This document shows positions 3,191 to 15,462 of a DNA stretch of 25,805 nt, one piece after another. Below the pieces are notes generated by a model that was not told the origin of the DNA, made no database searches, and saw only the letters and a program-made list of their open reading frames with translations. The first letter of the stretch is position 1; each line of letters opens with the position of its first letter. The translations under genes and the position numbers were made by a program. The DNA is from a virus. Location: IMG/VR virus record IMGVR_UViG_3300027870_000014, positions 1-25,805 of that record. One strand, written 5' to 3'.

Positions 3191-3826
3191 ATGGCTGACG
3201 CCATCTTAGCCGACCTCGAATCGTCTGGCATATATCAGATACGCAATCTGGTGAGCGGTAAGCGGTACATCGGAAGCGCGAAATCTTTTCGGAAGCGTTT
3301 CTATCTGCATAAGTGGCACCTTCGCAAGGGCATTCATAAGAATGCGCGATTGCAGAATGCATGGGATAAATTCGGGGCTGAATCTTTCAGCTTCGAAATT
3401 GTTGAGATGTGCTGTTGCGCCGACCTTATAGCCCGAGAGCAGCATTTCATCGACACCGTTAATCCCGAGTACAACTTAGCGCCGCGCGCCGGAAACACCG
3501 CCGGAGTCGTCATGAGCGACTCGGCGAAGAAGCTCATTTCAATTGCAAATACGGGCAATAAATATTGCCTGGGCAGGGAAGTGTCGCCCTCTACGCGAGA
3601 AAAAATAGCATCAGCAAATCGCGGTAGATTGGCGGGAAGAAAGCAATCCGACGAGCATATAAGCCGAAGGATTGCGCACCGAATCGGAAGAAAATTGAGC
3701 GACGAGACTAAGGCAAAAATTTCAGCTTCACGTACTGGCCAAAAGTTAGATAAGCCACGCAGCGCGGAATATCGAGCAAAGATTTCTGAGTCACATCGAA
3801 GAAGGCGCGAATCCAATGAGCGGTGA
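3191..3826 (+). CDS. GIY-YIG homing endonuclease with NUMOD3 repeats
   Basis: A 211-residue free-standing homing endonuclease. The catalytic domain has GIYQIRN at residues 13-19, KRYIG at 24-28, basic RKR near 34-36, His40, and the metal-binding glutamate in AREQHFID (Glu83) with Asn95 in the closing NPEYNLAPR. Residues about 108-205 carry several NUMOD3-like DNA-binding repeats (SPSTREKIASANRG, SDETKAKISASRTG, SAEYRAKISESHR). Such genes cut a related phage genome lacking them and are copied in by repair. The gene is visibly more A/T-rich than its neighbours, a sign of recent arrival. It sits between the CxxC gene and the protease and overlaps the protease start by 11 bases. No intron boundaries were seen. 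Confidence 0.93.
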   Translation: MADAILADLESSGIYQIRNLVSGKRYIGSAKSFRKRFYLHKWHLRKGIHKNARLQNAWDKFGAESFSFEIVEMCCCADLIAREQHFIDTVNPEYNLAPRAGNTAGVVMSDSAKKLISIANTGNKYCLGREVSPSTREKIASANRGRLAGRKQSDEHISRRIAHRIGRKLSDETKAKISASRTGQKLDKPRSAEYRAKISESHRRRRESNER

Positions 3827-4409: not shown

Positions 4410-4470
4410 TTCGCGGCATATAGCACGTTACGCAGGCGGCGCCTCCAGTGGAGGCCATAGGGCTGCGCAA

Positions 4471-4546
4471 GACCGTCGTGAGACGGCCTATCGCATCGCG
4501 GTGACGCGAGGCATCACAATTGGAAGGAAGCAACACACGTGAAGAC
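4471..4546 (+). promoter_or_regulatory. Structured leader of capsid mRNA (element copy 1)
   Basis: Hairpin A is CCGTC (4473-4477), loop GTGA, GACGG (4482-4486), flanked by GA and CC. Hairpin B is TCGCG (4496-4500), loop GTGA (4501-4504), CGCGA (4505-4509), followed directly by GGCATC (4510-4515). A strong ribosome site, GGAAGGAAG at 4522-4530, then precedes CACACGTGAA (4534-4543), which contains the GTG start at 4539. A further GC-rich hairpin (4441-4446 with 4450-4455) lies upstream. The second copy at 14931-15008 keeps the architecture with compensatory base-pair changes, arguing for a functional RNA structure. Role in translation or mRNA stability is inferred from position. Confidence 0.65.
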
Positions 4547-5972
4547 GTACGCAGAGCATATCGCCGCGCTGGAAGCGACGCGCGCCGACAAGCAGAAGCG
4601 CATGAAGGAACTCCATGCTGGCGCCGTCGATGGCGTCCGCACCATGGATTCCGCTGAATCGCAGGAATTCGAGACGCTCGAATCCGAGATCAAGACGATC
4701 GACGCCGATATCGAGCGCACCAAGAAGCTCGAAGCGATCGACAAGGGCACTGCAACGGCGGTGAGCGGCGAAGAAAAGAGCAATGCAACCGCCCAGGCCG
4801 GCGCGCCGCTGCGCAGTGAACTCAATCTCAAGACCGTCGAGAAACTGGAGCCGGGCATCGCCTTCGCGCGCTACGGCATGTGCGTGTTCGCGGCGAAGGG
4901 CGACCATTCCAAGGCGTTCCAGCTCGCGCAAAAGCACTACCCGCAGACCGAAAGCATCGTCAAGACGCTCAAGGCGCAGTCCGAAGGCGCGAACCTGCAG
5001 GAAATGATGCGCCTCAAGACGTCGATTGCCGCGGGCACGACCACGGATTCGACGTGGGCGGCTCCGCTGGTCTACGCCAACACGTTCGGCGGCGACTTCA
5101 TCGAGTTCCTGCGCGGGCAGACGCTGGTCGGTCGCGCCGCGTTCCGCCGCGTTCCGTTCAACGTCCGCATTGCGGGCCAGAATGGCGGCACCACGGGCTA
5201 CTGGGTCGGCCAGGGCAAGGCGAAGCCGGTTTCGAAGGCCTCGTTCAACGCCACGACCGTTCCGTTCACCAAGATCGCCGGCATCGCGGTGCTGACGCAG
5301 GAACTGATCCGGTTCTCGGATCCGTCGGCCGAGCGCCTGGTCCGCGACGACCTTGCGCGAGCTGTCACGGAACGCGCCGATTCGGACCTGTTCGATCCCG
5401 ATGTCGCCGCGGTGGCGAACGTCAACCCTGCCGGCCTGCTCAATGGCGTCAACCCGGTTGCAGGACCTGCGACCACCGATGCGGATGACATCCGCTGCGC
5501 GCTGATGCGCCTGTGGGCTCCGTGGGATTCGACGTATCTGGGCGCTCGCCCGGCGTACTTCACGACCCCGGCTGTAGCGCGCTTCCTGGCGTTCCAGCGC
5601 GATGCCCTCGGCAACCTCGCCTTCCCCGGCGTGACTCCGACGGGCGGCACGCTGGATGGCGTACCGATCTACGTTTCGCAGTACCTCGCGAACAACGGCG
5701 GTTCGGGCGGCGCTCCGCTGATCCTGGTTGACCAGGATGAGATCTTCCTGGCGGACGACGGCAACGTGACGGTCGATTTCTCGACCGAAGCATCGATCGA
5801 AATGAGCGATGCGCCGACGGCGGCCTCGGGCGTTCCGACTGCCGGCTCGGTCAACACGGTCAGCATGTTCCAGACGAACAGTGTTGCTCTCCGTGCCGAG
5901 CGCTTCATCTGGTGGGGTCCGCGTCGTAGCGGCGCCATCAACTGGATCGACGGTTTCCCGACCAGCTGCTAA
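4539..5972 (+). CDS. Major capsid protein (HK97 fold)
   Basis: A 477-residue HK97-type capsid protein. Residues about 5-65 are charged and coiled-coil-like (LEATRADKQKRMKELH, then ESEIKTIDADIERTKK), the usual internal scaffold or delta domain removed by the protease encoded just upstream. The shell domain begins around residue 160 (AAGTTTDSTWAAPLVYANTFGGDFIEFLRG). It includes the typical E-loop/P-domain stretch around AFRRVPFNVRIAGQNGG and ends with the common SVALRAERFIWWGPRR segment. The GTG at 4539 is chosen because a strong ribosome site lies just upstream and the whole scaffold coil is retained. A structured leader precedes it and a terminator-like hairpin follows, as expected for the highest-dose virion protein. 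Confidence 0.97.
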   Translation: MKTYAEHIAALEATRADKQKRMKELHAGAVDGVRTMDSAESQEFETLESEIKTIDADIERTKKLEAIDKGTATAVSGEEKSNATAQAGAPLRSELNLKTVEKLEPGIAFARYGMCVFAAKGDHSKAFQLAQKHYPQTESIVKTLKAQSEGANLQEMMRLKTSIAAGTTTDSTWAAPLVYANTFGGDFIEFLRGQTLVGRAAFRRVPFNVRIAGQNGGTTGYWVGQGKAKPVSKASFNATTVPFTKIAGIAVLTQELIRFSDPSAERLVRDDLARAVTERADSDLFDPDVAAVANVNPAGLLNGVNPVAGPATTDADDIRCALMRLWAPWDSTYLGARPAYFTTPAVARFLAFQRDALGNLAFPGVTPTGGTLDGVPIYVSQYLANNGGSGGAPLILVDQDEIFLADDGNVTVDFSTEASIEMSDAPTAASGVPTAGSVNTVSMFQTNSVALRAERFIWWGPRRSGAINWIDGFPTSC

Positions 5973-5980
5973 GCAACTTT

Positions 5981-6011
5981 GAGGCGGCGGGCTTCGGCCC
6001 GCCCCTCTTTT
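5981..6011 (+). terminator. Terminator-like hairpin after capsid gene
   Basis: GGCGGGC (5986-5992) pairs with GCCCGCC (5997-6003) around a stable TTCG tetraloop. GAGG (5981-5984) can extend the stem with CCTC (6004-6007) across one bulged C, and TTTT follows at 6008-6011. This fits an intrinsic terminator. Because portal and connector genes lie downstream with no obvious new promoter, it probably acts as a partial terminator, or as a 3' stabiliser, that lowers expression after the capsid gene. Confidence 0.75.
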
Positions 6012-6022
6012 CGAGGTGAGCG

Positions 6023-6319
6023 ATGCAAGTCACGCCCGTAAAGAAGAAGTTCGGAAAACACGTTCCAGGCGACGTGTTCGAGTTGCGAGACAAGACCGCC
6101 AAGATTCTCATCGCTGTCGGCAAACTGGCTCCGGCAGGATATTTGACGCGCGATATGCGCGCGGAGCGACCGCAGGCGCCCGCCGTGATCGTCGATGCTC
6201 CGCAGGTTGCGGTTGTCTCCGATCCTGTCGTCGATGAATCCGCCGAGGAAGCGCCATACGGATACAAGGCGGACGGCACGCCGCGCAAGCGCCCCGGTCG
6301 GCCGGCATCGGAATCCTGA
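6023..6319 (+). CDS. Small hypothetical protein between capsid and portal
   Basis: A 98-residue protein with a good ribosome site (GAGGTGA at 6013-6019). The N-terminal half (KKKFGKHVPGDVFELRDKTAKILIAVGKLAPA) looks like a small compact domain of the kind often seen directly after phage capsid genes. The middle is Ala/Val/Pro-rich. The C-terminus has a basic DGTPRKRPGRPAS tail that resembles an AT-hook (GRP core with basic flanks). Function is unknown: a minor head component or DNA-contacting protein is possible. It ends two bases before the portal start. Confidence 0.75.
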   Translation: MQVTPVKKKFGKHVPGDVFELRDKTAKILIAVGKLAPAGYLTRDMRAERPQAPAVIVDAPQVAVVSDPVVDESAEEAPYGYKADGTPRKRPGRPASES

Positions 6320-6320
6320 A

Positions 6321-7721
6321 ATGCGCCTTCTTGGTCTGGATATCAAACGCGCGGCCAGCGGCATGGCGACCGTGCCTGCGCGCGGATGGTCCCGGATTCT
6401 CGAATCATTCACGGGCGCATGGCAACAGAATGTTGAGGTCAAGCAGTGCGATCTGGTTTCGTACCCGACGCTATATGCGTGCATTCAGCGCATTGCATCG
6501 GATATCGGCAAATTGCCGTTCTGCCTGAAGCGGAAGAACAACAGCGGCATTTGGCAAGAGGAGGATAATCCCGCCTATTCCCCCGTGCTCCGCAAGCCGA
6601 ATGGATACCAGACTACGCAGCAGTTTCTTGAGCTTTGGCTGGTATCGAAGCTGACGCAGGGCAATACCTATGTCCTCAAGGTGCGCGACAACCGCGGCGT
6701 TGTGGTCGCGATGTATGTACTCGACCCGTGCCGCGTGCAGCCGATGGTCACGGAATCCGGCGCCGTCTACTACCAGCTGATGACGGATAGGCTCAATAAG
6801 CTGCCCGAGGGCCTGCCGCAGGATAGATTGCTTGTTCCGGCGTCGGAGATCATCCACGACCGTTGCATTACCTTCCACCATCCGCTGATTGGCGTGCCGC
6901 CTTTGTGCGCAGCCTATTGGCCGGCGGTGAAGAACCTAAAGATCCTGCAGAGTTCGACGCAATTCTTCGGAAACAGTTCGCAGCCTGGCGGCATCCTGTC
7001 AGCGCCGGCTGGAATGGACGACGAGGATGCGCAGCGGATCAAGGAATACTGGGACGCGAATTACAGCGGCACCAACGCCGGCAAGGTCGCAGTTATCGGC
7101 GCCGATATGAAGTTCACCAGCTTCGCCATGAAGGGCGCCGATTCTCAGCTTGTCGAGCAGATGCGCTACTCGGATGAGCAGATTTGCCAGCCCTTTGGCG
7201 TCCCGCCATTCAAGATCGGCATTGGCACGATCCCGGCCGGACTGGGCATCGATGCGATCAACCTGATGTATTTCGACGATGCGCTTTCGTGCCACGTCGA
7301 GGCGATCGAGAACCTTCTCGACCAGGCGCTCGCGCTGTCCAATGATCTCGGCATCTGGCTCGACACGGAGCCGCTTTTGCGCATGGACGTTGGCAAGCAG
7401 GCAGACGTGGAATCGAAGCTGGTGGGCGGAAAGATCAAGACGCCGGACGAGGCGCGCAAGCGGTTCAACCTCGGCGCTACTGGCGGCGGCGATACGCTTT
7501 GGGGCCAGCAGCAGGACTACCCGCTCGGCATGCTGGCCGATCGTGCGGAATGGGATCCGAATATGCAGCAGCCGGCGCAATCGGCTCCGGTCGCGCCCGA
7601 TCCTACGGCCGATCCGAGCGCGGACCCAAGCGCCAATGCGGCAGAAGAGATGCGGCAACTTAAAGCCGAACTGTGGGCGCGCAAGGCGCTAGACGCGATA
7701 CGAGAGGCCGTCAATGCTTGA
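6321..7721 (+). CDS. Portal protein (HK97 family)
   Basis: A 466-residue portal subunit. It forms the ring at the single capsid vertex through which terminase pumps DNA and to which connectors bind. Family features include the N-terminal VKQCDLVSYPTLYACIQRIASDIGKLPF stretch, the wing segment with PNGYQTTQQFLELWL, the HHPLIGVPPLCAAYWP region and the stem/crown segment EQICQPFGVPPFKIGIG. The tail holds a short DP-rich repeat (DPTADPSADPSA), then a helix. The ATG at 6321 lies directly after the previous stop and gives a family-like N-terminus. An in-frame ATG at 6195 would overlap the upstream gene by over 120 bases and is rejected. The gene lies after the capsid gene rather than before the protease, which differs from the HK97 order. 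Confidence 0.95.
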   Translation: MRLLGLDIKRAASGMATVPARGWSRILESFTGAWQQNVEVKQCDLVSYPTLYACIQRIASDIGKLPFCLKRKNNSGIWQEEDNPAYSPVLRKPNGYQTTQQFLELWLVSKLTQGNTYVLKVRDNRGVVVAMYVLDPCRVQPMVTESGAVYYQLMTDRLNKLPEGLPQDRLLVPASEIIHDRCITFHHPLIGVPPLCAAYWPAVKNLKILQSSTQFFGNSSQPGGILSAPAGMDDEDAQRIKEYWDANYSGTNAGKVAVIGADMKFTSFAMKGADSQLVEQMRYSDEQICQPFGVPPFKIGIGTIPAGLGIDAINLMYFDDALSCHVEAIENLLDQALALSNDLGIWLDTEPLLRMDVGKQADVESKLVGGKIKTPDEARKRFNLGATGGGDTLWGQQQDYPLGMLADRAEWDPNMQQPAQSAPVAPDPTADPSADPSANAAEEMRQLKAELWARKALDAIREAVNA

Positions 7722-8604
7722 CGCAACAGAGTTTGGCAAGGCGATGGCCGCGATCGTTCGCGACGCTACGACGCCGCTGCAGAAGCGCATCGAGGAGCTT
7801 GAGGCGCGGCAATTGCAGCGCGGCGAGAAGGGCGATCCTGGTATCGCTGGTGAGCGAGGCGAGGCTGGCGAGCCGGGTATTGCCGGTCCACAGGGTGAGC
7901 CGGGGCCGCAAGGGCCGCAGGGCGCTCCCGGCAAGGACGCTGATCCGATCGATCTTGCCGATGTTGCGCGCGAGCTGGCATCGCTGCCGGAAATCAAAAC
8001 AGTGCTTGACCTGTTGACGGCCGAAGCGGTCGCGAAGCACTTCCAGGCAAACCCGGTGCGCGATGGCAGGGATGGCGCGCCTGGCGCGAATGGCAAGGAC
8101 GGCGCAGCCGGTCCGCAAGGCGAGCGCGGCCTCGACGGCGCGGTCGGCAAGGACGGAGCCGGTATCGCTGATCTGCTAATAGACCGAGACGGCCATCTCG
8201 TGGCGACCATGACGGATGGCCGCACGAAGAACCTTGGCCCAGTGATCGGCAAGGATGGTGCGCCAGGCAAGGACGGCGCAGACTTCACCGACTGCGAGAT
8301 CGAATACGACGGGGAACGTACGATCACGGTACGCGGTAAGGGCGGCGAGATCGTCAAGCATGTTCCAATCCCGATCGACCGCGGCTACTGGTCGGAAGGC
8401 AAGTCTGCAGAGCGGGCCGATATCCTGACGCACAACGGCTGCGCATGGATCGCGTTGCGAGCAACGAAGGCAACACCTTGCCATGAGAACAAGGATGACT
8501 GGCGCCTGATGGTCCGCAAGGGCCGCGACGGCGTTGACGGTCGCAATGGGCGAGACCTTGGCCCGGCTCCGCCCGTGAAGCTCAACGGAGCCGGCGATGC
8601 TTGA
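7714..8604 (+). CDS. Collagen-like virion protein, possible head fibre
   Basis: A 296-residue protein with four blocks of collagen Gly-X-Y triplets at about residues 37-75, 118-148, 179-189 and 270-281. Residues 5-36 form a likely coiled coil that could start trimerisation. Residues about 190-265 form a globular segment containing YWSEGKSAERADILTHNG and CAWIALRATK, a pattern common in phage fibre-like proteins. It overlaps the portal gene by 8 bases (ribosome site GAGAGG just upstream) and the connector gene by 8 bases, so it is made with head-neck proteins. A head or neck fibre that contacts the host surface is the best inference. Collagen-like stretches are often glycosylated in other systems, of interest given the sugar-transfer genes downstream. 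No signal peptide. Confidence 0.85.
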   Translation: MLDATEFGKAMAAIVRDATTPLQKRIEELEARQLQRGEKGDPGIAGERGEAGEPGIAGPQGEPGPQGPQGAPGKDADPIDLADVARELASLPEIKTVLDLLTAEAVAKHFQANPVRDGRDGAPGANGKDGAAGPQGERGLDGAVGKDGAGIADLLIDRDGHLVATMTDGRTKNLGPVIGKDGAPGKDGADFTDCEIEYDGERTITVRGKGGEIVKHVPIPIDRGYWSEGKSAERADILTHNGCAWIALRATKATPCHENKDDWRLMVRKGRDGVDGRNGRDLGPAPPVKLNGAGDA

Positions 8605-8989
8605 ACTCGTCACGCACGACGAAGCCGTTGCGCATCTCCGTCTAGACGAGTCCGCGGACGATGCGTGGCTTTCGGTCTTCATCCCGGCGATCTCGGAAGC
8701 CGTCGCTGGCTGGCTGAAGGACGAATGGCGGCTCTATGTGCCGGAGATGGACGGCGGCGAGGTCGTTGTCGATTCCTCTGGCGATCCTGTGCCGGCAGTC
8801 GATTCAAACGGCTACACCGTGCGCCCCGTCGTCAAGGCCGCGGTGCTGTTGGAGCTTAGCAGCGTCTACCGCTATCGCGAGGGCGAAGGGAAAGACAACG
8901 TGGTTTCGGATGCTGCCGGCCATGGGTATTCGCTCAACAAGGCCTCAACCGCCATACTGGCATCGCTGCGTAAATCGACTCTCGCATGA
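8597..8989 (+). CDS. Head-tail connector (HK97 gp6-like)
   Basis: A 130-residue protein of the gp6-like connector type, which forms a ring under the portal. Visible family features are the opening THDEAVAHLRLDESADDAWLSVFIPAISEAVAGWL, a short loop, then RPVVKAAVLLELSSVYRYREGEG, where the helical stretch before the arginine-rich YRYRE is typical. It overlaps the collagen-like gene by 8 bases and the next connector by 4, consistent with coupled synthesis at matched ratios. Similar proteins are called Phage_connect_1 or DNA packaging protein in other phages. Confidence 0.85.
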   Translation: MLELVTHDEAVAHLRLDESADDAWLSVFIPAISEAVAGWLKDEWRLYVPEMDGGEVVVDSSGDPVPAVDSNGYTVRPVVKAAVLLELSSVYRYREGEGKDNVVSDAAGHGYSLNKASTAILASLRKSTLA

Positions 8990-9324
8990 GCAACGTAGCC
9001 GCCGGCCGCCTCCGTCACCGCATCCGCATTGATGAGCAGGTTACGCTGAAGAATTCATCCGGCGAGCAGACGGTCGAATGGGAAGAAGTCGCGACGGTAT
9101 GGGCGGCAATCGAACCGCTTAGCGCTCGCGAATCGATGATCGCCGAGCAGACGCAATCGAAGGTAAGCGCGCGGATCATCATCCGTTCAAGGAACGACAT
9201 TCGCGCCAGCATGCGCGCCGTTCATGGGACGACGATCTACAACATCGAAGGCGTGATCCGCGATCCGGATAGCGGGCAGGAGTGGATTACGTTGACCGTG
9301 ACGACTGGAGTCAATGAAGGCTAG
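8986..9324 (+). CDS. Head-tail joining / head closure protein
   Basis: A 112-residue member of the phage head-tail joining family (SPP1 gp16 / HK97 gp7-like), which binds under the connector ring and forms the tail-docking surface. Recognisable are GRLRHRIRIDEQV, then EEVATVWAAIEPLSARE with the W-A-x-I-E-P-L hallmark, and a C-terminal half with IIRSRNDIRASMRAVHGTTIYNIEGVI. A 4-base overlap links it to the connector gene. An 11-base overlap links it to the first gene of the sugar/methyl cassette, which separates it from the next structural gene by about 4.6 kb. Confidence 0.9.
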   Translation: MSNVAAGRLRHRIRIDEQVTLKNSSGEQTVEWEEVATVWAAIEPLSARESMIAEQTQSKVSARIIIRSRNDIRASMRAVHGTTIYNIEGVIRDPDSGQEWITLTVTTGVNEG

Positions 9325-10027
9325 GGCGTTCCTAAATCTTCGCTACACCGTCCCCGAACGGCGCGCAGTGTTCACGGAAGGGTTGCAGCAGATCGGATTC
9401 GAAGTAGTGCATGGCCTGACGCGCGAGCCGCGCGAAGGCGATGTGCTCGTGACGTGGAACCGCATCCACGAAGGCGATGCCTGCGCGCGCGAGTTCGAGC
9501 GGCGCGGCAATGCGGTCCTAGTGACCGAGAACGCAACGTGGGGAAACGGCTTCGCCGGCGAACCCTGGTACACCCTGGCACGGAGCTATCATAACCTCAG
9601 TGGCACATTCCCGATTGGCGGTGACGAGCGGTGGGACTCTCTGGGCGTCGAGCTGGCGCCATGGCGGACGAGAGGCGAGACAGTCATTCTGCCCAGCCGA
9701 GGCATCGGCCCGCCTGCCCATCGGATGCCTCGCGATTGGACATCGCGGCAGGTTGGACGAGTCCGGTCGCATCCTGGTACGGGGCCGGCGAAACGGCTCG
9801 AAGAAGACCTCGCCGAGTGCGGCCGGGTGGTTACGTGGGGTTCTGGCGCGGCAGTCAAGGCGCTAATGCTCGGCATTCCGGTCGAATCGCACATGCCGGG
9901 ATGGATCGCGGCTCAAGACAACACTGATGCCGGGCGACTGGCAATGTTCCGGCGGCTAGCGCATGCGCAGTGGCGCCTTTCAGAACTCAGGACGGGTGAG
10001 CCATTCGCACGATTGCTTGCGAGGTAG
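9314..10027 (+). CDS. Putative GT-B-like glycosyltransferase, copy 1
   Basis: A 237-residue protein. The most telling segment is GRVVTWGSGAAVKALMLGIPVESH near residues 168-191, the pattern of a nucleotide-sugar-binding half in GT-B or capsule-type glycosyltransferases (conserved Ser/Ala-rich turn, then GIPV). RSHPGTGPAKRLEEDL just before it resembles their RPHPG-type loop. It ends with WRLSELRTGEPFARLL. The next gene shares both the GIPV region and this C-terminal signature, so the two are paralogues. The start ATG at 9314 lies inside the head-closure gene. No membrane segment or signal peptide. Donor and acceptor sugars cannot be told. Family assignment is pattern-based and moderate. Confidence 0.6.
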   Translation: MKARAFLNLRYTVPERRAVFTEGLQQIGFEVVHGLTREPREGDVLVTWNRIHEGDACAREFERRGNAVLVTENATWGNGFAGEPWYTLARSYHNLSGTFPIGGDERWDSLGVELAPWRTRGETVILPSRGIGPPAHRMPRDWTSRQVGRVRSHPGTGPAKRLEEDLAECGRVVTWGSGAAVKALMLGIPVESHMPGWIAAQDNTDAGRLAMFRRLAHAQWRLSELRTGEPFARLLAR

Positions 10028-10028
10028 C

Positions 10029-10826
10029 GTGAATCTCAGGGTCGCATGTCTGACCCATCCGGGACAGAAGCGCTATCGGCTTGTGGCTGAGGCAATGGCG
10101 GTCGGGATCGGTCGCTGCGGCGATACGCCTTACATGCATCCATTGAGCGGACCGATGATGCAGGCGGACGTTGCAGTCTGCTACGGGTGGAAACGCCGCG
10201 CGCAATACATCGGCTATCCGCGGTTCGTCTATGCGGACCTCGGATACTGGCACCGAGACACGCATTACCGCCTCGTAGCCGGAGGATGGAGTCCGGAAGG
10301 GTACGTTATGGCCGGACTTCCATCGGAACGTCTCGCGAAGCTGGGCGTCGATGTGAAGCCGTGGAAGCAAGGCGGCGATACGATCATCATTGCTGGATCG
10401 ACTGGCAAGTCCTGCGTAGAGCATGGGCTGGCCTATCGGTCATGGGAGATTCGCGCGGCTGAACGCCTGCGAGATTGCGGTAAGCGCATCGTCTACAGGC
10501 CGAAGCCGACGGACCCATGTAAGGCGCCGCTTCCTGGCGTCGAATATGACCAAGCGCCGATCGAGGAATCATTGGCGCGAGCCTGCGCACTGGTAACGCA
10601 TCATTCCAATGCTGCAGTTCAGGCACTTGCGGCTGGCATTCCCGTCCATTGCGAGGTCGGCGCCGCTGCGGCCTTCAGCGTGCCGATGTCGGAAATCGCA
10701 CAAGCGCCGCGACTGGATGGCAGGGATCAGTTCCTTGCCGACGTCGCTTGGCTGAATTGGTCGTTGGATGAGATGCGCTCTGGCGAGGCTTGGGCGCACA
10801 TGAAGGAGCGAGGATTGCTGTGCTGA
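10029..10826 (+). CDS. Putative GT-B-like glycosyltransferase, copy 2
   Basis: A 265-residue protein (GTG start at 10029, one base after the previous stop, with GAGG just upstream) paralogous to the preceding gene. Shared features are the segment ALVTHHSNAAVQALAAGIPVH near residues 206-226 and the C-terminal LNWSLDEMRSGEAWAHM, matching WRLSELRTGEPFARL in copy 1. It also keeps RIVYRPKPTDP near 166-176, a basic loop typical of sugar-nucleotide phosphate binding, and an N-terminal Rossmann-like half (NLRVACLTHPGQKRYRLVAEAM). An ATG at 9963 would overlap copy 1 and is less likely. Probably soluble and cytoplasmic. Glycosyltransferase role is inferred from pattern and neighbours. Confidence 0.6.
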   Translation: MNLRVACLTHPGQKRYRLVAEAMAVGIGRCGDTPYMHPLSGPMMQADVAVCYGWKRRAQYIGYPRFVYADLGYWHRDTHYRLVAGGWSPEGYVMAGLPSERLAKLGVDVKPWKQGGDTIIIAGSTGKSCVEHGLAYRSWEIRAAERLRDCGKRIVYRPKPTDPCKAPLPGVEYDQAPIEESLARACALVTHHSNAAVQALAAGIPVHCEVGAAAAFSVPMSEIAQAPRLDGRDQFLADVAWLNWSLDEMRSGEAWAHMKERGLLC

Positions 10827-11518
10827 CATTCGACGCGGTGACGACTTTCGCGGAATCGCATTGGGAATCCCATGCGAAGCGATGCGTCGAGACTTTCCGG
10901 CAATTCTGGAGTGGCATCCCGCTGCGGACATTTACGGACGCGCAGCTTGAACTTGGGTCCGATTGGCTGCCGGAGTTCAAACAGCGCCATCGGCACCGCC
11001 CAACGCACAACTACCGCTTCGATGCTGTCCGGTTCGCGCACAAGGTAGCCGCCATCGAGATGGCATTCCGGGCAGGAAGCGCAGACGTACTGATTTGGAT
11101 CGATGCCGACTGCGTGACGCATGCGCCGGTAGACGCGGAATGGCTTTCAAGCCTGCTAGGAGATGCCGACCTTGGCTATCTCCGGCGCTCGACGAAGTAT
11201 CCGGAATGCGGATTTGTGATGTTCCGCCGATCGCAGGAAGGCGCCGAGCTGATTAAGGCAATGGTCCGCCTGTACCAGACCGATCGCCTGTTCGATCTGC
11301 CGGAGTGGCACGACTGCATGGCACTGGATCATGCCCGGCAGACGCTGGGCACGCGCTGGACGTCGCTTTCTGGAGATGCCGAGTCAACCGGGCATCCATT
11401 GGTCAATGGGCCGCTGGGCGCTCGCCTGGATCACTTGAAGGGCAAGCGCAAGGCGGCCGGAAAGTCGCTCAAGTCGGATTTGAAGAAATCGCGCAGCGAG
11501 GCCTATTGGAATGGGTAA
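10820..11518 (+). CDS. Putative GT-A glycosyltransferase (DxD)
   Basis: A 232-residue protein with a classic GT-A metal-binding DxD: ADVLIWIDADCVTHAPV around residues 88-104, with Asp95 and Asp97. Upstream RFAHKVAAIEMAF (71-83) matches the donor-binding helix often seen before DxD. Downstream GFVMFRRSQEGAELI and EWHDCMALDHAR complete a GT8/GT34-like layout. The C-terminus is lysine-rich and may contact nucleic acid, lipid or partner protein. The GTG at 10820 is chosen because GAGG lies six to seven bases upstream and it overlaps the previous stop by 7 bases. The ATG at 10790 is an alternative. A retaining hexosyltransferase is a guess. Confidence 0.75.
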   Translation: MLTFDAVTTFAESHWESHAKRCVETFRQFWSGIPLRTFTDAQLELGSDWLPEFKQRHRHRPTHNYRFDAVRFAHKVAAIEMAFRAGSADVLIWIDADCVTHAPVDAEWLSSLLGDADLGYLRRSTKYPECGFVMFRRSQEGAELIKAMVRLYQTDRLFDLPEWHDCMALDHARQTLGTRWTSLSGDAESTGHPLVNGPLGARLDHLKGKRKAAGKSLKSDLKKSRSEAYWNG

Positions 11519-12179
11519 GGGGCTGACCGCATCCATGCAGCTAGTCAAGGGCTTGGCGATGCCGGCCTTCGACGAGTTCATGGTCAAGATCGTGCCGGAT
11601 GATGGCCGATACCAGCACGAGAACCTGATGGCGGCGGCTTCGCATTGCAGGCAGCGCCGTACGGTCATCGATGGCGGCGCGCATGTGGGCATGTGGTCGC
11701 GAACGTTCGCCGGCCTGTTCGATCGCGTGATCGCTTTCGAGCCGTCACCCGATACCTTCGAATGCCTGCTCTACAACATCGACGCGCCGAACGTGGATTG
11801 CAGGAATCAGGCGCTTGGCGCCGCTCCCGGCAAGATCCACATGACCCTCGCCGGGTTCGAAGGGACGCAGCGCGAAAAGAACTCCGGCGCTCGCTATGTC
11901 GCGGACGGCGGCAACATTGACCGCGTGACGGTCGACTCGCTCGATCTGGACGACCTGGATCTGCTGAAAATGGACATTGAGGGCAGCGAGGTCGAGGCAT
12001 TGAAGGGCGCGCGCGAAACACTCCTGCGCTGCCGGCCCGTGGTCCTGTTTGAAGGAAAGAACGAATGGATCCGCCGCGGGTTCAAGGAAGATGCGCCGCA
12101 GCGCTTCCTGTCATCGCTCGGCGCTGAAAAGTTCGAGCGCGTCGGGATCGATGAAATTTGGGGCTGGCCCAATGGCTAA
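11511..12179 (+). CDS. FkbM-family methyltransferase
   Basis: A 222-residue SAM-dependent methyltransferase of the FkbM (Methyltransf_21) family, which commonly O-methylates sugars and polyketides. Motif I is VIDGGAHVG at residues 52-60, motif II-like VIAFEPSPDTFECLLYNI at 73-90, and the family hallmark VDSLDLDDLDLLKMDIEGSEVEALKGA spans about 141-167. The segment CRPVVLFEGKN follows. Identification is firm. It overlaps the GT-A gene by 8 bases and the next methyltransferase by 8 bases. In this company the most likely substrate is a sugar added by the neighbouring transferases. Confidence 0.93.
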   Translation: MGKGLTASMQLVKGLAMPAFDEFMVKIVPDDGRYQHENLMAAASHCRQRRTVIDGGAHVGMWSRTFAGLFDRVIAFEPSPDTFECLLYNIDAPNVDCRNQALGAAPGKIHMTLAGFEGTQREKNSGARYVADGGNIDRVTVDSLDLDDLDLLKMDIEGSEVEALKGARETLLRCRPVVLFEGKNEWIRRGFKEDAPQRFLSSLGAEKFERVGIDEIWGWPNG

Positions 12180-12759
12180 GCGATATGCGCAGATGCTTCC
12201 GATCATCGCCGAGCTGAAGCCGTCCGTGATCGTCGAGGTCGGCGTACACAAAGGACTGCGCGGATCTGCGCTTAGCCTGGAAGCCCTGAAACATTCGGCC
12301 AATGTCCGCTACGTCGGTTATGACGTGTTCGAGACGATGGGCGAGGAGTTCCAGCGCGAGGCCTTGAATGGCAAGAGCACGCCATCTGAGGCGCGCGCTC
12401 GGCAGGCTTTCGATCCAATCGTCGGCCAGCATCCCGGGTTTGCCTACGCCTTCCACGTGGGCGACACGCGCAAGACTCTGCACGGGCGGTCACTGGACGC
12501 AGACTTCGCGTTCATCGATGGCGACCATCGCGTTGAGGCGATCCGCGGCGACTATATGGCACTCAAAGATGCCAAGGTTGTCGTGTTGGATGACTTCTAC
12601 ATGCCTGGGCCTTCCGGATCACTACCGGACCTATTGCTCTACGGCGCGAATTCACTGGTCGATGAGCTTCGAGCAGATGGGCGCGAGGTGGAAATTCTTC
12701 CGATTGGCGACCTATGCAATCACGGCGCAGTGGCGCATCTGGCGGTAGTTCGCCAATGA
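12172..12759 (+). CDS. Class I SAM methyltransferase (Methyltransf_24-like)
   Basis: A 195-residue protein with a Rossmann-type SAM site: VIVEVGVHKGLRG at residues 19-31 as motif I, RYVGYDVFETM at 46-56 with the acidic residue after strand 2, and DFAFIDGDHRVEAIRGDY at 111-128, where the IDGDH is typical of Methyltransf_24 and TylF-like sugar O-methyltransferases. VVVLDDFYMPG (136-146) adds possible metal-binding aspartates. The start at 12172 overlaps the FkbM gene by 8 bases. An in-frame ATG at 12049 lies far inside that gene and is rejected. Two different methyltransferases side by side suggest two positions of methylation on one glycan, which is inference. Confidence 0.85.
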   Translation: MAKRYAQMLPIIAELKPSVIVEVGVHKGLRGSALSLEALKHSANVRYVGYDVFETMGEEFQREALNGKSTPSEARARQAFDPIVGQHPGFAYAFHVGDTRKTLHGRSLDADFAFIDGDHRVEAIRGDYMALKDAKVVVLDDFYMPGPSGSLPDLLLYGANSLVDELRADGREVEILPIGDLCNHGAVAHLAVVRQ

Positions 12760-13394
12760 TAGACCTGTTCGCTGGATGGGACGCGCGCGAGGAGGCCGGG
12801 TTCCATGTGTTCTGCCGCAGCGTGCTTTCGCGGGCATCAGTTCCGGTCCGGATTACTCCGGTTGGCGCATTCGGTGGACCGCAGGGGACGAACGAGTTCA
12901 CCTATTCGCGGTTCATGGTCCCGGCGATGATGGACTATCGCGGTCATGCGATCTTCATGGATGGAAGCGACATGCTTGCGCAGGACGACATTGCGAAGCT
13001 CGACGAACTGTTCGATGCGGCCTTCGCAGTGCAGGTCGTGAAACACCCGAACTACAAGACGCGGCACAAGGTCAAGTATATCGGAACGGCGATGGAGTGC
13101 CCGAATACGAACTATGCCCGGAAGAACTGGGCCTCGGTCATGCTGATCAATTGCGAGCATGAGGCATGGCGGTCTGTTCCAGAAGGATTGGACGCGCTGC
13201 AATTGCGATTCATTCCTGATGAGCTGATCGGCGAGCTTCCTGCGACATGGAATTGTCTTGTGGATGAGGGGCATGCGCCAGGCTCGGTGCTTCACTGGAC
13301 GGCCGGCATCCCCGCTTTCAAGCACTACACGAACGCTACGCAATCCGACGTATGGCACGCCGAGTGCGCAGCGATGATGCAGGCAGCGGCATGA
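12756..13394 (+). CDS. Putative GT-A (GT8-like) glycosyltransferase
   Basis: A 212-residue protein with a DxxD metal site in HAIFMDGSDMLAQDDI around residues 64-79 (Asp69, Asp72). It is preceded by SRFMVPAMMDY (51-61), in the place where GT8-type enzymes carry the donor-binding helix. The later VMLINCEHEAWRSV and VLHWTAGIPAFKHY resemble the acceptor-side motifs of GT-A enzymes, where LHWxGxPKPW-like patterns are common. It starts with ATGA overlapping the methyltransferase stop. Not homologous by eye to the other GT-A gene of the cassette beyond the DxD region. Predicted soluble. Confidence 0.72.
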   Translation: MIDLFAGWDAREEAGFHVFCRSVLSRASVPVRITPVGAFGGPQGTNEFTYSRFMVPAMMDYRGHAIFMDGSDMLAQDDIAKLDELFDAAFAVQVVKHPNYKTRHKVKYIGTAMECPNTNYARKNWASVMLINCEHEAWRSVPEGLDALQLRFIPDELIGELPATWNCLVDEGHAPGSVLHWTAGIPAFKHYTNATQSDVWHAECAAMMQAAA

Positions 13395-13894
13395 AGGTCG
13401 CGGTACTCGCCACCGGACCGAGCATGTCTCAGGCCGTGGCGGATCGTGCGCGCGCAGAATGCGATGCCGTGGTGGCGGTCAACAAAGCAATGGAGCTGGC
13501 GCCTTGGGCCGACGCTCTGGCGGCGAATGACCACGCATGGTGGCGTGCCAATCCGGAAGCCAAGACGTTCGCCGGCCGCAAGTTCAGTGCGAACAAGATC
13601 GAAGGCGTGGAACAGGTCGTGTCGGATCTAGTGACGCGCCAATCCAGCTCAGGTGTTCTCGGGCTTCATGTGGCGCAACTACTCGGCGCAACCGAGGTCG
13701 AGCTACACGGTTTCGAGAACCGAGGCGATCACTACTTCGGCAAGTACCCGGAACCGCTTCGCAACACATCGCCGTCGCGTTATAGCGCATTCGAGGACCA
13801 GCTTAGCGCGCTTGGCGCCTCGATGAAGAAGGCTGGAATCCGCATCATAAACAGGACGCCGGACTCGGCGCTAAGGTGCTTCGACCGTGGCTGA
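13391..13894 (+). CDS. DUF115/MptE-like protein
   Basis: A 167-residue Rossmann-like protein. The opening MKVAVLATGPSMSQAVADRAR carries the GxGPS-like nucleotide loop. AVVAVNKAMELAPWADALAANDHAWW follows, and SSSGVLGLHVAQLLGATEVELHGFE near residues 86-109 is the hallmark of the DUF115 group (MAF flagellin-glycosylation factors, MptE-type 6-hydroxymethylpterin pyrophosphokinases). In bacteria such proteins are tied to flagellin glycosylation with nonulosonic acids, while archaeal MptE acts in pterin synthesis. Here sugar transfer or sugar handling is more likely from context. It overlaps its neighbours by 4 and 8 bases. The protein is shorter than full MAF enzymes, so it may be only the nucleotide-binding core. 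Confidence 0.65.
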   Translation: MKVAVLATGPSMSQAVADRARAECDAVVAVNKAMELAPWADALAANDHAWWRANPEAKTFAGRKFSANKIEGVEQVVSDLVTRQSSSGVLGLHVAQLLGATEVELHGFENRGDHYFGKYPEPLRNTSPSRYSAFEDQLSALGASMKKAGIRIINRTPDSALRCFDRG

Positions 13895-14378
13895 CCTTGT
13901 TCGGGTGGATGGCCTGCGAGAGCTTCAGGCGAAGCTCACGTCGCTCGGTATCGAGTACGGCACCAAGGCCGCCTACAACCCTGTCCGCAATGCGCTAAAC
14001 AAGGCCGCCCGCGTCATCCGCGATTCGGCGAAGCAGAAGGTGCGCCGCAAGACGGGCACTCTGGCGGACAACATCATCGTTACGTCGAAGGGAAAGCCAG
14101 ACCCTAATGGACTGATTAGCTCCAAGGTGGTCGTGCGATCGAAGGCGAAGGCCTACAAGGACAACCCTCGCAACCGCAGGACCGGCAAGGTTGGCGGAAG
14201 CTACAAGAACTACGGCCCGCTGTTCTATGCGCGCTTTCTTGAATTCGGGACTAGCAGGATGCAGCCCTACCCATTCCTCCGCCCGGCATTCGAAGAAAAC
14301 AAGATGGCGCTACCGCAGATGATCAAGAACGAATTGGCTGACGCGATTGAGCGCAGCGTGGCGAAGCTAGGCCGATGA
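13887..14378 (+). CDS. HK97 gp10-like tail completion protein
   Basis: A 163-residue protein of the HK97-gp10-like family. Features are the opening VDGLRELQAKLTSLG, a basic helix (NALNKAARVIRDSAKQKV), RKTGTLADNIIV, and the C-terminal LEFGTSRMQPYPFLRPAFEE, where the E-F-G-T-S...P-Y-P-F-L-R-P-A pattern is diagnostic. It sits at the top of the tail where tail and head join. The start is GTG at 13887, 8 bases inside the cassette's last gene. In most relatives it directly follows the head-closure gene. Here it is displaced by the cassette. Confidence 0.92.
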   Translation: MADLVRVDGLRELQAKLTSLGIEYGTKAAYNPVRNALNKAARVIRDSAKQKVRRKTGTLADNIIVTSKGKPDPNGLISSKVVVRSKAKAYKDNPRNRRTGKVGGSYKNYGPLFYARFLEFGTSRMQPYPFLRPAFEENKMALPQMIKNELADAIERSVAKLGR

Positions 14379-14737
14379 CCGTTCAACTTCCGCGGGTTCA
14401 GAATGCGCTGGAAGGATCGACCGCGCTCACGACGATCGTTGCTGACCGAATCAGCATGGGCATCGCGCCGGAGGATCAGACGCGGCCCTATGTCGTCTGG
14501 TGGATCGTTTCTGCCGTGCCGGAGAACCTGCTGGGCGAGCGACCGCTGGAAGACGACCAGCGCGTCCAGGTGGATTGCTGGGCCATGAGTCAGCCGCAGT
14601 GCCGGCAGATGATGCAGGCCGCGAACGATGCCTGCGAGGCGATCGGTCATGTGGTGCTCGGGCCGTCGTACGAGTATGAGGCAGAGTCCAAATTGCATAG
14701 ATGGTCTTTCGACCTCGAGGTGCGGAACACGAGATGA
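14375..14737 (+). CDS. Tail completion / terminator protein (DUF3168-like)
   Basis: A 120-residue protein fitting the DUF3168 tail terminator group, which caps the tail tube and sets the head-proximal end. Family-like features are VQNALEGSTALTTIVADRI near the N-terminus, RPYVVWWIVS, RVQVDCWAMSQPQCRQMMQAANDAC and the closing HRWSFDLEVRNT. It overlaps the gp10-like gene by ATGA. It is the last gene of the coupled chain that started at the portal-collagen junction. A terminator and the tail-tube leader follow. Confidence 0.85.
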   Translation: MTVQLPRVQNALEGSTALTTIVADRISMGIAPEDQTRPYVVWWIVSAVPENLLGERPLEDDQRVQVDCWAMSQPQCRQMMQAANDACEAIGHVVLGPSYEYEAESKLHRWSFDLEVRNTR

Positions 14738-14778
14738 CGAGCACGCATCCGGGTGAAATCGGTTGCGCTGTTCGATCG

Positions 14779-14805
14779 GGAAGGAAAGCGCGCGTAATTC
14801 CTTCC
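14779..14805 (+). other. Purine/pyrimidine hairpin in intergenic stretch
   Basis: GGAAGGAA (14779-14786) is perfectly complementary to TTCCTTCC (14798-14805) around an 11-base loop rich in CG steps. It lies in the 263-base gap between the tail terminator gene and the tail tube gene, 68 bases before the intrinsic terminator. No gene is supported in this gap. The GGAAGGAA arm looks like a ribosome site hidden in a stem, but no good reading frame follows it. Confidence 0.5.
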
Positions 14806-14872
14806 TTCGGTGTACTCGCAATTCAATAGCGGGAAGTCCGACGCAGGCCCGAGCGATACGGGCACTAATTCC

Positions 14873-14899
14873 AAGGCCAGCCATTGCGCTGGCCTTTTT
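14873..14899 (+). terminator. Intrinsic terminator before tail tube gene
   Basis: AAGGCCAGC (14873-14881) pairs perfectly with GCTGGCCTT (14888-14896) around a CATTGC loop, and the stem runs into a T-tract at 14895-14899. This is a textbook rho-independent terminator. It ends the head/connector transcript about 100 bases before the tail tube start, so either the tail genes have their own promoter in the short space after it, or read-through is partial. No clear promoter was found between 14900 and 14930. Confidence 0.85.
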
Positions 14900-14930
14900 C
14901 ATTTCCGGCGGAGCGCTCTGCCGGGAAAAC

Positions 14931-15008
14931 GACTGTCGTGATGACAGCCGGTTCGCAACGCCGCGAGGCGTGGCATCCCATCGATGGAGCAATAGCACAC
15001 GTGAAAAC
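14931..15008 (+). promoter_or_regulatory. Structured leader of tail tube mRNA (element copy 2)
   Basis: Hairpin A is CTGTC (14933-14937), loop GTGAT, GACAG (14943-14947), with the same GA/CC flanks as copy 1. Hairpin B is ACGCC (14958-14962), loop GCGA, GGCGT (14967-14971), followed at once by GGCATC (14972-14977). TCGCA precedes hairpin B exactly as in copy 1. A ribosome site, GGAG (14986-14989), and CACACGTGAA (14996-15005) follow, with the GTG start at 15001. Compared with the capsid leader, one pair of hairpin A and two pairs of hairpin B differ with both partners changed. An extra GC-rich hairpin lies at 14905-14924. Confidence 0.65.
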
Positions 15009-15462
15009 CCAAGGCACCGAACTCTGGTTCGTTTCCGATGCCAGCACGCCCGCGATCGTCAAGGTCGGTTGTCCGACCGGCGTGACCGGCCTCGGCGGCA
15101 GCCGCAATCAGATCGACGTCACCTGCCTGGACTCGGCGGAAATGCAGTATGAGCCCGGCATGGCGAATCCCTCAACCGTTTCCGTTCCGATCAACTTCGA
15201 TCCGCAGAACGTCTCGCACGAAGAACTGCTTGACATGTTCGACAACGGCACGATCGTGCATTGGATCCTCGGCTTCAGCGACGACACCGCGCCGCCGACG
15301 GTCGATGGTTCCGGCACCGTTACCTACCCGTCGACGCGCAGCTATATCGACTGGTACGGCTACCTCGCCGACTTCCCGTTCGATGCCGCTCTCAACTCGG
15401 TCTACAAGACGAACATGACGATCCAGCGCAGCGGCGCGCGCGGCTTCCACAAGAAGACCTGA
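15001..15462 (+). CDS. Major tail tube protein
   Basis: A 153-residue protein placed and sized as a siphovirus tail tube subunit. It is beta-rich with the family-like opening GTELWFVSDASTPAIVKVGCPTGVTGLGG, then RNQIDVTCLDSAEMQYEPGMANP, where an I-D-V-T-C/S-LDS pattern is common in tail tube proteins. PVSIxFDPQN-like and IVHWILGFSDD segments follow. The GTG at 15001 has a ribosome site 11 bases upstream and sits in the same leader element as the capsid start. An upstream in-frame ATG at 14884 would place the reading frame across the terminator and leader hairpins and is rejected. Both capsid and this gene begin with GTG-AAR-AC. Confidence 0.88.
   Translation: MKTQGTELWFVSDASTPAIVKVGCPTGVTGLGGSRNQIDVTCLDSAEMQYEPGMANPSTVSVPINFDPQNVSHEELLDMFDNGTIVHWILGFSDDTAPPTVDGSGTVTYPSTRSYIDWYGYLADFPFDAALNSVYKTNMTIQRSGARGFHKKT

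Follow-up and report, generated by a model that had tools for sequence, protein, structure and literature searches.

Phages need hundreds of copies of their head and tail-tube proteins and only a few copies of the products of neighboring genes in the same operon; to our knowledge, the means by which these protein ratios are set have been worked out in only a few model phages. The phage DNA analyzed here (the window, 25,805 nucleotides in full) raises this question in a concrete form: what does an RNA structure shared by the leaders of the major head gene and the major tail gene do there?

Hairpins in two leaders of the window

On the plus strand, the head-gene leader contains hairpin A (GA-CCGTC-GTGA-GACGG-CC) at positions 4471 to 4488 and hairpin B, the copy proximal to the gene (GCA-TCGCG-GTGA-CGCGA-GGC), at 4493 to 4512, with its stem-loop at 4496 to 4509. 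Both are apparent in the sequence and the predicted fold, and both are matched by a covariance model (hits at 4471 to 4492, E = 1e-5, and 4493 to 4539, E = 8e-8). Downstream lie ATCAC (4513 to 4517), identified by sequence, motif comparison and the model as a variant of the AUYCC box described below; the Shine-Dalgarno sequence GGAAGG (4522 to 4527); and the GTG start of the major head protein gene (4539 to 5972), which was assigned by protein family match to phrog_617/10. The tail-tube leader, on the same strand, repeats this order, with hairpin A (GA-CTGTC-GTGAT-GACAG-CC) at 14931 to 14949 (model hit 14931 to 14954, E = 0.003) and the proximal hairpin B (GCA-ACGCC-GCGA-GGCGT-GGC) at 14955 to 14974 (stem-loop 14958 to 14971; model hit 14955 to 15001, E = 2e-8), both again present in sequence and fold. 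An AUYCC box (ATCCC, 14975 to 14979, from sequence and motif comparison), the Shine-Dalgarno sequence GGAG (14986 to 14989) and the GTG start of the major tail (tail-tube) protein gene (15001 to 15462; protein family match to phrog_158) follow. Two other plus-strand features lie nearby, namely, a structured element upstream in head-gene leaders that is distinct from the GNGA motif (GCAGGC...GGCCATAGGGCTGC, 4432 to 4466) and an intrinsic-terminator-like hairpin with a T run 5' of the tail-tube leader (14873 to 14899).

The first-pass annotation had described one layout for both leaders, three double changes between the copies that preserve pairing, and hairpin A-to-start distances of 68 and 70 nt, all of which are present in the sequence, and the genes behind the leaders do encode abundant virion proteins, as it had proposed. 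In both leaders, TCGCA precedes hairpin B and GGCATC follows it; CACACGTGAA, which is likewise common to both, was encountered in this phage only. The description of a two-hairpin element needs revision. Both hairpins are real, but they are tandem copies of one motif rather than different parts, and single-hairpin forms are common, with many phages carrying one hairpin only. What recurs elsewhere is a single hairpin with the AUYCC box, set at a constant spacing from the start codon.

Although the predicted folds of both leaders contain hairpins A and B, their fold energies are ordinary (z = -1.6 and -0.7), and folding alone would therefore have missed the element. The covariance model, trained on 37 sequences drawn mostly from other phages (1 of the 37 being the tail-tube hairpin B of the window), gave confident matches within the window only at the four hairpin sites of the two leaders.

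Consensus, pairing and controls

From the base up, the hairpin of the motif is built of two lower pairs, an A·C mismatch, a 5-bp stem (YYGYY/RRCRR) and a GNGA loop; the AUYCC box comes after it, the sequence behind the hairpin being CC-N-AUYCC. The loop is GNGA in 45/45 copies, with G at loop position 3 in every one of them although A was permitted there; the third stem pair is likewise G-C in 45/45, and the stem ends 24 to 29 nt before the start codon in 40 of the 45. Being conserved, on the sense strand and at a fixed distance 5' of start codons, the motif has the structural hallmarks of a cis-acting leader RNA.

Pattern scans yielded approximately 80 additional leaders. Stable hairpins are common, however, and the scans might simply have collected look-alikes: in bacterial genomes the pattern is about as frequent as chance predicts, in part inside terminators, and single-stranded RNA (ssRNA) phages also contain about five matches outside leaders. 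Counts of upper-stem pairs are not independent evidence on this point, since they come from copies chosen for pairing. Independent evidence comes from a stem-free pattern, for which full complementarity was found in 15/15 leader copies versus 0/13 non-leader matches, from a second pattern that did not fully impose pairing (40/41 leader copies complementary), and from the lower pair, which no search required (G-C in 20 copies, C-G in 13, U-A in 2, A-U in 1, and unpaired in 2). Moreover, scanning with shuffled stems returned 6 contigs, none resembling these leaders, compared with 68 for the real pattern, and loop-control patterns found 0 to 5 leaders, compared with 49 for the GNGA motif. The same phages also carry additional copies at the same position that had not been used for selection. 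Chance or base composition, already contradicted by these results, is left with a negligible probability. At loci selected by protein, 18/18 model matches fell on the strand of the gene.

The first-pass annotation had named a lack of further copies or of covariation as grounds for abandoning its proposal; instead, many related and unrelated phages carry the covarying element. Its proposal that no named family matches also stands. At the gathering cutoffs of all Rfam 15 families, the window gave 0 matches and 18 other loci gave only tRNAs and one twister-P5, and low-threshold scans of individual copies produced nothing convincing. The twister-P5 match overlaps an unrelated pattern match in contig L107. 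The Rfam motifs GP20-a, GP20-b and Mu-gpT-DE, which are associated with phage structural genes, resemble our motif in being structured RNAs of unknown function that adjoin phage head or scaffold genes; they fell below threshold in the window and the 18 other loci and were not listed in low-threshold scans of four copies. Like the motif, the mini-ykkC (guanidine-II) riboswitch has two small, similar tandem hairpins just before the ribosome site, but its loops are ACGR, whereas all 45 copies have GNGA loops, and Rfam gave no match. Full-text literature searches, both for the sequence itself and for leader motifs of phage capsid genes, found no match among the texts covered, which did not include a 2017 survey of 224 candidate RNAs. 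Given that the element is conserved, covarying, without an Rfam match and linked with the genes for the most abundant virion proteins, its designation as a new cis-regulatory RNA is well supported.

Carriers and downstream genes

The genes behind the motif encode head proteins of several families (phrog_10/617/29/212/283/334/1005), decoration (phrog_49) and scaffold (phrog_3927/8865) proteins, and major tail proteins (phrog_158/584/807/13196). One contig, L203, has separate copies before its decoration, head and tail-tube genes. Behind a few copies are less abundant or unknown products, i.e., a portal protein (L371), a tail-completion protein (L333), a replicase (L139) and unknown proteins (L097, L346 and L106). 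Pseudomonas phage PAJU2 and Salicola phage CGphi29 are among the cultured phages that carry the motif. Of the head-gene homologs in this clade, no more than roughly one in four has the motif, indicating that it is dispensable.

Six ssRNA phage contigs with a PF03431 replicase also carry the motif, directly before the coat gene in 5/6 and before the replicase in 1/6, which implies that it must act as RNA. It is rare in such phages, being found in 0/80 relatives sampled. The motif was absent from approximately 560 other alpha- and gammaproteobacterial genomes, and the consensus had no BLAST match in E. coli genomes. Matches from scans of Firmicutes and Bacteroidota genomes were mostly chance or terminators, the model finding none in six genomes that were either of this kind or controls, and we attribute the BLAST matches in Caulobacter phages CcrColossus and CcrPW, together with the ctUnS216 match, to chance.

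This range of downstream genes bears on whether a head, tail or coat protein might bind its own leader, a feedback role that the first-pass annotation had suggested. The location of the motif at virion genes would suit such a role, and the MS2-type coat operators provide a precedent: the MS2/Qbeta operator, bound by coat protein at the replicase start, is likewise a sequence-specific RNA hairpin beside a phage start codon. In contrast to that operator, the motif mostly precedes the head or coat gene itself, including in most of its ssRNA phage copies, and it does so in phages with unrelated coat proteins. Since the proteins encoded behind the same hairpin, from several head families to ssRNA phage replicase, belong to unrelated families, they cannot share one RNA-binding site, and we consider feedback highly unlikely.

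Candidate modes of action

We favor, at roughly even confidence, the view that the motif is a cis-acting RNA signal that raises the expression of abundant virion proteins through a host factor, plausibly at translation initiation; the hairpin probably helps the host ribosome to make virion proteins in large amounts. One hairpin, or two in tandem, would have its 3' end about 25 to 28 nt upstream of the start codon, immediately beyond the 5' edge of the ribosome footprint, with the single-stranded AUYCC box and then the Shine-Dalgarno sequence on the 3' side of the hairpin. The GNGA loop, invariant third G-C pair, A·C mismatch and box could then be recognized as one unit by a factor common to diverse proteobacterial hosts, most plausibly within the translation initiation machinery (the 30S subunit or a ribosome-associated protein), and this recognition would raise ribosome loading on the downstream gene. 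That the factor would be a shared host one is suggested by the presence of the motif in unrelated phages and minimal RNA phages and its absence from the approximately 560 bacterial genomes. A resemblance of the hairpin to helix 36 of 16S rRNA (UGUC-GUGA-GAUG) was set aside, since a likeness of this degree may be coincidental. The T7 gene 10 leader, which raises expression, similarly places a hairpin and then a strong ribosome site before a major capsid gene; it differs from the motif in that its hairpin forms the 5' end of the mRNA, it has neither a GNGA loop nor an AUYCC box, and it is not homologous. A purely structural insulator of the ribosome-binding site is unsupported, since the predicted accessibility of that site was unchanged when the hairpin pairs were forbidden (0.392 versus 0.395, P = 0.82).

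Alternatively, the hairpin could mark or protect the 5' terminus that processing leaves on a late mRNA segment, giving head and tail-tube messages a longer life than their neighbors, with its sequence features tuning recognition by an RNase such as RNase E. Stabilizing 5' stem-loops are established for ompA and T7 late mRNAs. Among head-gene leaders without the motif, 7/24 have a terminator-like hairpin ending 25 to 31 nt before the start, in the same slot, versus 0/11 of those with the motif, and terminators lie within 150 nt upstream of 5/41 copies versus 1.2% of control windows. These terminator hairpins keep the stability explanation alive. The motif itself is not an intrinsic terminator, its hairpin being followed by CC-N-AUYCC and not by the T run that comes directly after the GC-rich stem of a terminator. 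One copy also shares its topology with a hairpin in the RNase E 5' untranslated region (RF00040, rne5), with 2 bp, a 1-by-1 mismatch with A, a 5-bp stem and a GUGA loop, but in rne5 the third pair is A-U, there is no AUYCC box, and the match reached only 11.1 bits over 24/333 positions against a cutoff of 180. Moreover, a search of 21 Lysobacterales genomes did not find rne5, and the covariance model gave the E. coli rne leader a score of just 4.4 bits. A protective hairpin would need neither a fixed GNGA loop nor a fixed third pair, and in ssRNA phages the motif is part of the genomic RNA, which cutting at that point would damage. These genomic copies favor translation over stability, and we regard an effect on stability as rather unlikely.

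A regulated switch, in which a host or phage regulator bound to the hairpins holds back virion-gene translation until late in infection, would be consistent with the sequence-specific conservation of the motif and with its tandem copies, which are typical of cooperative binding sites. Pairing between the AUYCC box and the GGA of the Shine-Dalgarno sequence is conceivable, but beyond the fixed core such pairing shows no covariation (14/41 observed versus 14.1 expected), which also argues against a conserved third hairpin. In addition, a phage-encoded regulator cannot be common to ssRNA phages and unrelated tailed phages, and repression poorly suits the proteins needed most. A switch is thus improbable.

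The favored expression signal may extend to a wider proposal, which we put forward only tentatively: the sequence-specific hairpin and the AUYCC box could constitute a general "virion gene" translation signal that the host ribosome, or a factor associated with it, reads directly; unrelated tailed double-stranded DNA phages would use this signal, ssRNA phages would have acquired it separately, and the sampled host genomes would make no use of it. The cultured carriers make the motif testable now. In metagenomes it would mark the genes of abundant virion proteins by sequence, and it might also serve as a compact leader for boosting expression in non-model proteobacteria. As a short signal common to unrelated phages with DNA or RNA genomes, the motif would suggest that phages exploit an unrecognized step in bacterial translation or mRNA decay.

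Hairpin copies in the window and in related phages

The window, a 25.8-kb IMG/VR virus record, derives from a lambda-like siphovirus, and inspection of its sequence showed that its head leader (hairpins at 4471-4512) and tail-tube leader (hairpins at 14931-14974) have exactly the two layouts described in the first-pass annotation, including the three double changes that retain pairing and the hairpin-to-start distances. The first of these leaders belongs, as it had proposed, to a major head gene (phrog_617/10) and the second to a major tail gene (phrog_158). Its two-hairpin layout holds insofar as both hairpins are present, but the proximal hairpin B repeats the distal hairpin A rather than forming a separate part, and our covariance model (37 training sequences, mostly from other phages, one being the tail-tube hairpin B) matches both. 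Since the predicted fold energies of the two leaders were not remarkable, the case for the element rests on comparison.

Head-gene and tail-tube homologues were taken from IMG/VR by protein similarity, independently of the motif. The further copies in related phages on which the annotation had made its proposal depend were found: about one-quarter of the head loci and several tail-tube loci carried the same hairpins in their leaders, with stems changed but compensated. Across 59 homologue loci, some of which had trained the model, the 12 best matches all lay in leader position and 18 of 18 matches were on the gene's strand. In four contigs, extra matches lay 180 to 280 nt 5' of the head gene (L005:1316-1361, L008:944-962, L015:1240-1284, and L029:1222-1268).

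Several neighboring features were also observed. A second structured element, GCAGGCAUYGCC-variable stem-GGCCAUAGGGCUGC, occurs only in head-gene leaders (window 4432-4466; L006, L008, L010, L012, L013, L029, L035, L049, L050, L057, L130, and L300); its internal-loop letters are invariant, and its inner stem covaries, with pairing in 98.7% of cells and double changes at 5 pairs. Some leaders have this element but lack the GNGA hairpin, and the element is also present in Stenotrophomonas phage SOVA965. Tandem CGTGGAA(C)-loop hairpins lie 5' of the GNGA hairpins upstream of the head gene in L088, L091, L094, L100, and L117, and similar loops (CGTTGCAC, TTTGTTG) occur in many other head leaders. 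In head leaders that lack the GNGA hairpin, its slot is often taken by an intrinsic-terminator hairpin whose end lies 25 to 31 nt before the start codon (L018, L028, L033, L039, L017, L041, and L063). Elsewhere in the window, several ORFs of ~160 to 290 amino acids between the head-completion and tail genes (9314-13894), some glycosyltransferase- or methyltransferase-like by eye, form a block unusual for a lambda-like morphogenesis module, and a GIY-YIG-like homing endonuclease ORF (also by eye) separates the terminase and protease genes (3191-3826).

Pairing and consensus across viral contigs

The element also recurs well beyond this phage group. An exact-pattern scan of 2.9 million viral contigs with the hairpin A core, GACNGTCGTGAGACNGCC, matched 68 contigs; in a large share of these, the match lies 20 to 60 nt upstream of a Shine-Dalgarno sequence that leads into a long gene. 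A shuffled-stem control matched 6 contigs, none resembling these leaders. A second stem family, GACYGCYGTGARGCRGCC, matched 74 contigs, with 41 leaders among the newly fetched matches. A pattern match in L107, a viral contig of 204 kb, overlaps a twister-P5 ribozyme known from Rfam (L107:3229-3296).

Because pattern GACYGNNGNGANNCRGCCNATYCC leaves the four innermost stem letters free, it permits a noncircular pairing test: full complementarity was seen in 15/15 leader matches versus 0/13 elsewhere. With the second pattern, the figures were 40/41 for leaders and 16/27 for other matches, several of these 27 being leaders cut off at contig ends. The covariation that the annotation had required is present in the leader stems. 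The lower base pair, for which pairing was never demanded in the collection counted, was G-C in 20 copies, C-G in 13, U-A in 2, A-U in 1, and unpaired in 2; upper-stem counts are descriptive only, since those copies were chosen to pair.

The consensus consists of two lower pairs, a 1x1 mismatch (A.C in 33/45 copies), a 5-bp stem (YYGYY/RRCRR), the loop, ~3 nt, AUYCC, and a Shine-Dalgarno sequence, with 24 to 29 nt from stem end to start codon in 40/45 copies. The third pair was G-C and the loop GNGA in all 45 copies (GUGA in 33; the loop has a fifth base in a few) in a search that permitted GNAA. GTGA patterns had brought in part of these copies, but some 19 obtained without them gave the same consensus. 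Six other loop classes yielded 0 to 5 matches at the same loci, compared with 49 for the GNGA element. That the loop and third pair are fixed points to recognition of the element by something, rather than to stability alone. Tandem hairpins occur in other phages as well (e.g., L196, L203, and L368), including cultured Pseudomonas aeruginosa phage PAJU2 (CTGCC-GGGA-GGCAG, then CCGCT-GTGA-AGCGG), and the proximal hairpin holds the fixed slot before the start codon. PAJU2 has two more short GNGA-loop hairpins, CGTC-GAGA-GACG and ACGTC-GGGA-GACGT, at 10534-10609 (L306:1035-1110), upstream of the terminator preceding its major tail gene.

Downstream genes and carriers

The element precedes major head genes (PHROG families 10/617, 29, 212, 283, 334, and 1005), decoration (PHROG 49) and scaffold (PHROG 3927 and 8865) genes, and major tail protein genes (PHROG 158, 584, 807, and 13196). 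Copies stand before both head and tail tube in the window, L130, L133, L088, L100, L123, L003, and L050; before both scaffold and head in L122, L199, and L193; and, one copy each, before decoration, head, and tail tube in lambda-like contig L203. L166 has them on two contigs, ahead of the head gene and of a second gene in the virion region whose function is unknown. Exceptions are a portal gene (L371), a tail-completion gene (L333), and a few unknowns.

Cultured carriers are PAJU2 and vB_PaS_IME307 (P. aeruginosa) and CGphi29 (Salicola), and SOVA965 has a degenerate copy. Prophages with the element were present in one MAG each from the Alphaproteobacteria (two contigs, both with two copies), Lysobacterales, and Desulfuromonadales. 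None of 273 other gammaproteobacterial or 288 other alphaproteobacterial genomes matched under stricter filters, which weak copies may escape, and BLAST found no match in E. coli genomes.

Six contigs that encode an ssRNA-phage replicase (PF03431) carry the hairpin directly before the coat-position gene (L080, L103, L112, L137, and L316) or the replicase gene (L139), coat identity being based on gene order, with a weak coat-family match in L137 only. The consensus is complete, with a YCC box, in L080, L137, and L316; the box deviates in L103, L112, and L139. Chance hairpins do arise in such structured genomes, since about five further ssRNA-phage matches are antisense or fall within genes. Leader positions make up ~2% of the searchable ssRNA space, yet 6 of ~11 matches fall there, far beyond chance (rough binomial estimate, ~1e-8). 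The hairpin was not found in 80 sampled ssRNA-phage relatives, which marks its acquisition as rare and scattered. ssRNA phages never pass through DNA, so the element must work at the RNA level.

Possible mechanism and novelty

The element is common to unrelated phages and minimal RNA phages, so that what reads it is most likely a host factor, which would bind the hairpin and act at translation initiation. The sequence constraint, the fixed start-codon distance, and the use before internal genes of RNA genomes favor translation initiation, which we rank first at about an even chance. A role in mRNA stability ranks second and seems rather unlikely; in its favor, a terminator hairpin occupies exactly the same slot in 7/24 relatives without the element versus 0/11 with it, and one copy resembles an RNase E leader hairpin in topology. 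A trivial structural role was countered by two results: predicted ribosome-binding-site accessibility was unchanged when the hairpin was forbidden, and no covarying pairing linked the AUYCC box to the Shine-Dalgarno region.

Consistent with the annotation's failure to name a family, no Rfam family matches, and the sequence was not found in the openly accessible papers searched. By sequence comparison, the element is a putative new family within a known general class, the cis-acting leader RNAs, and it would be unusual among these in spanning DNA and RNA phages.
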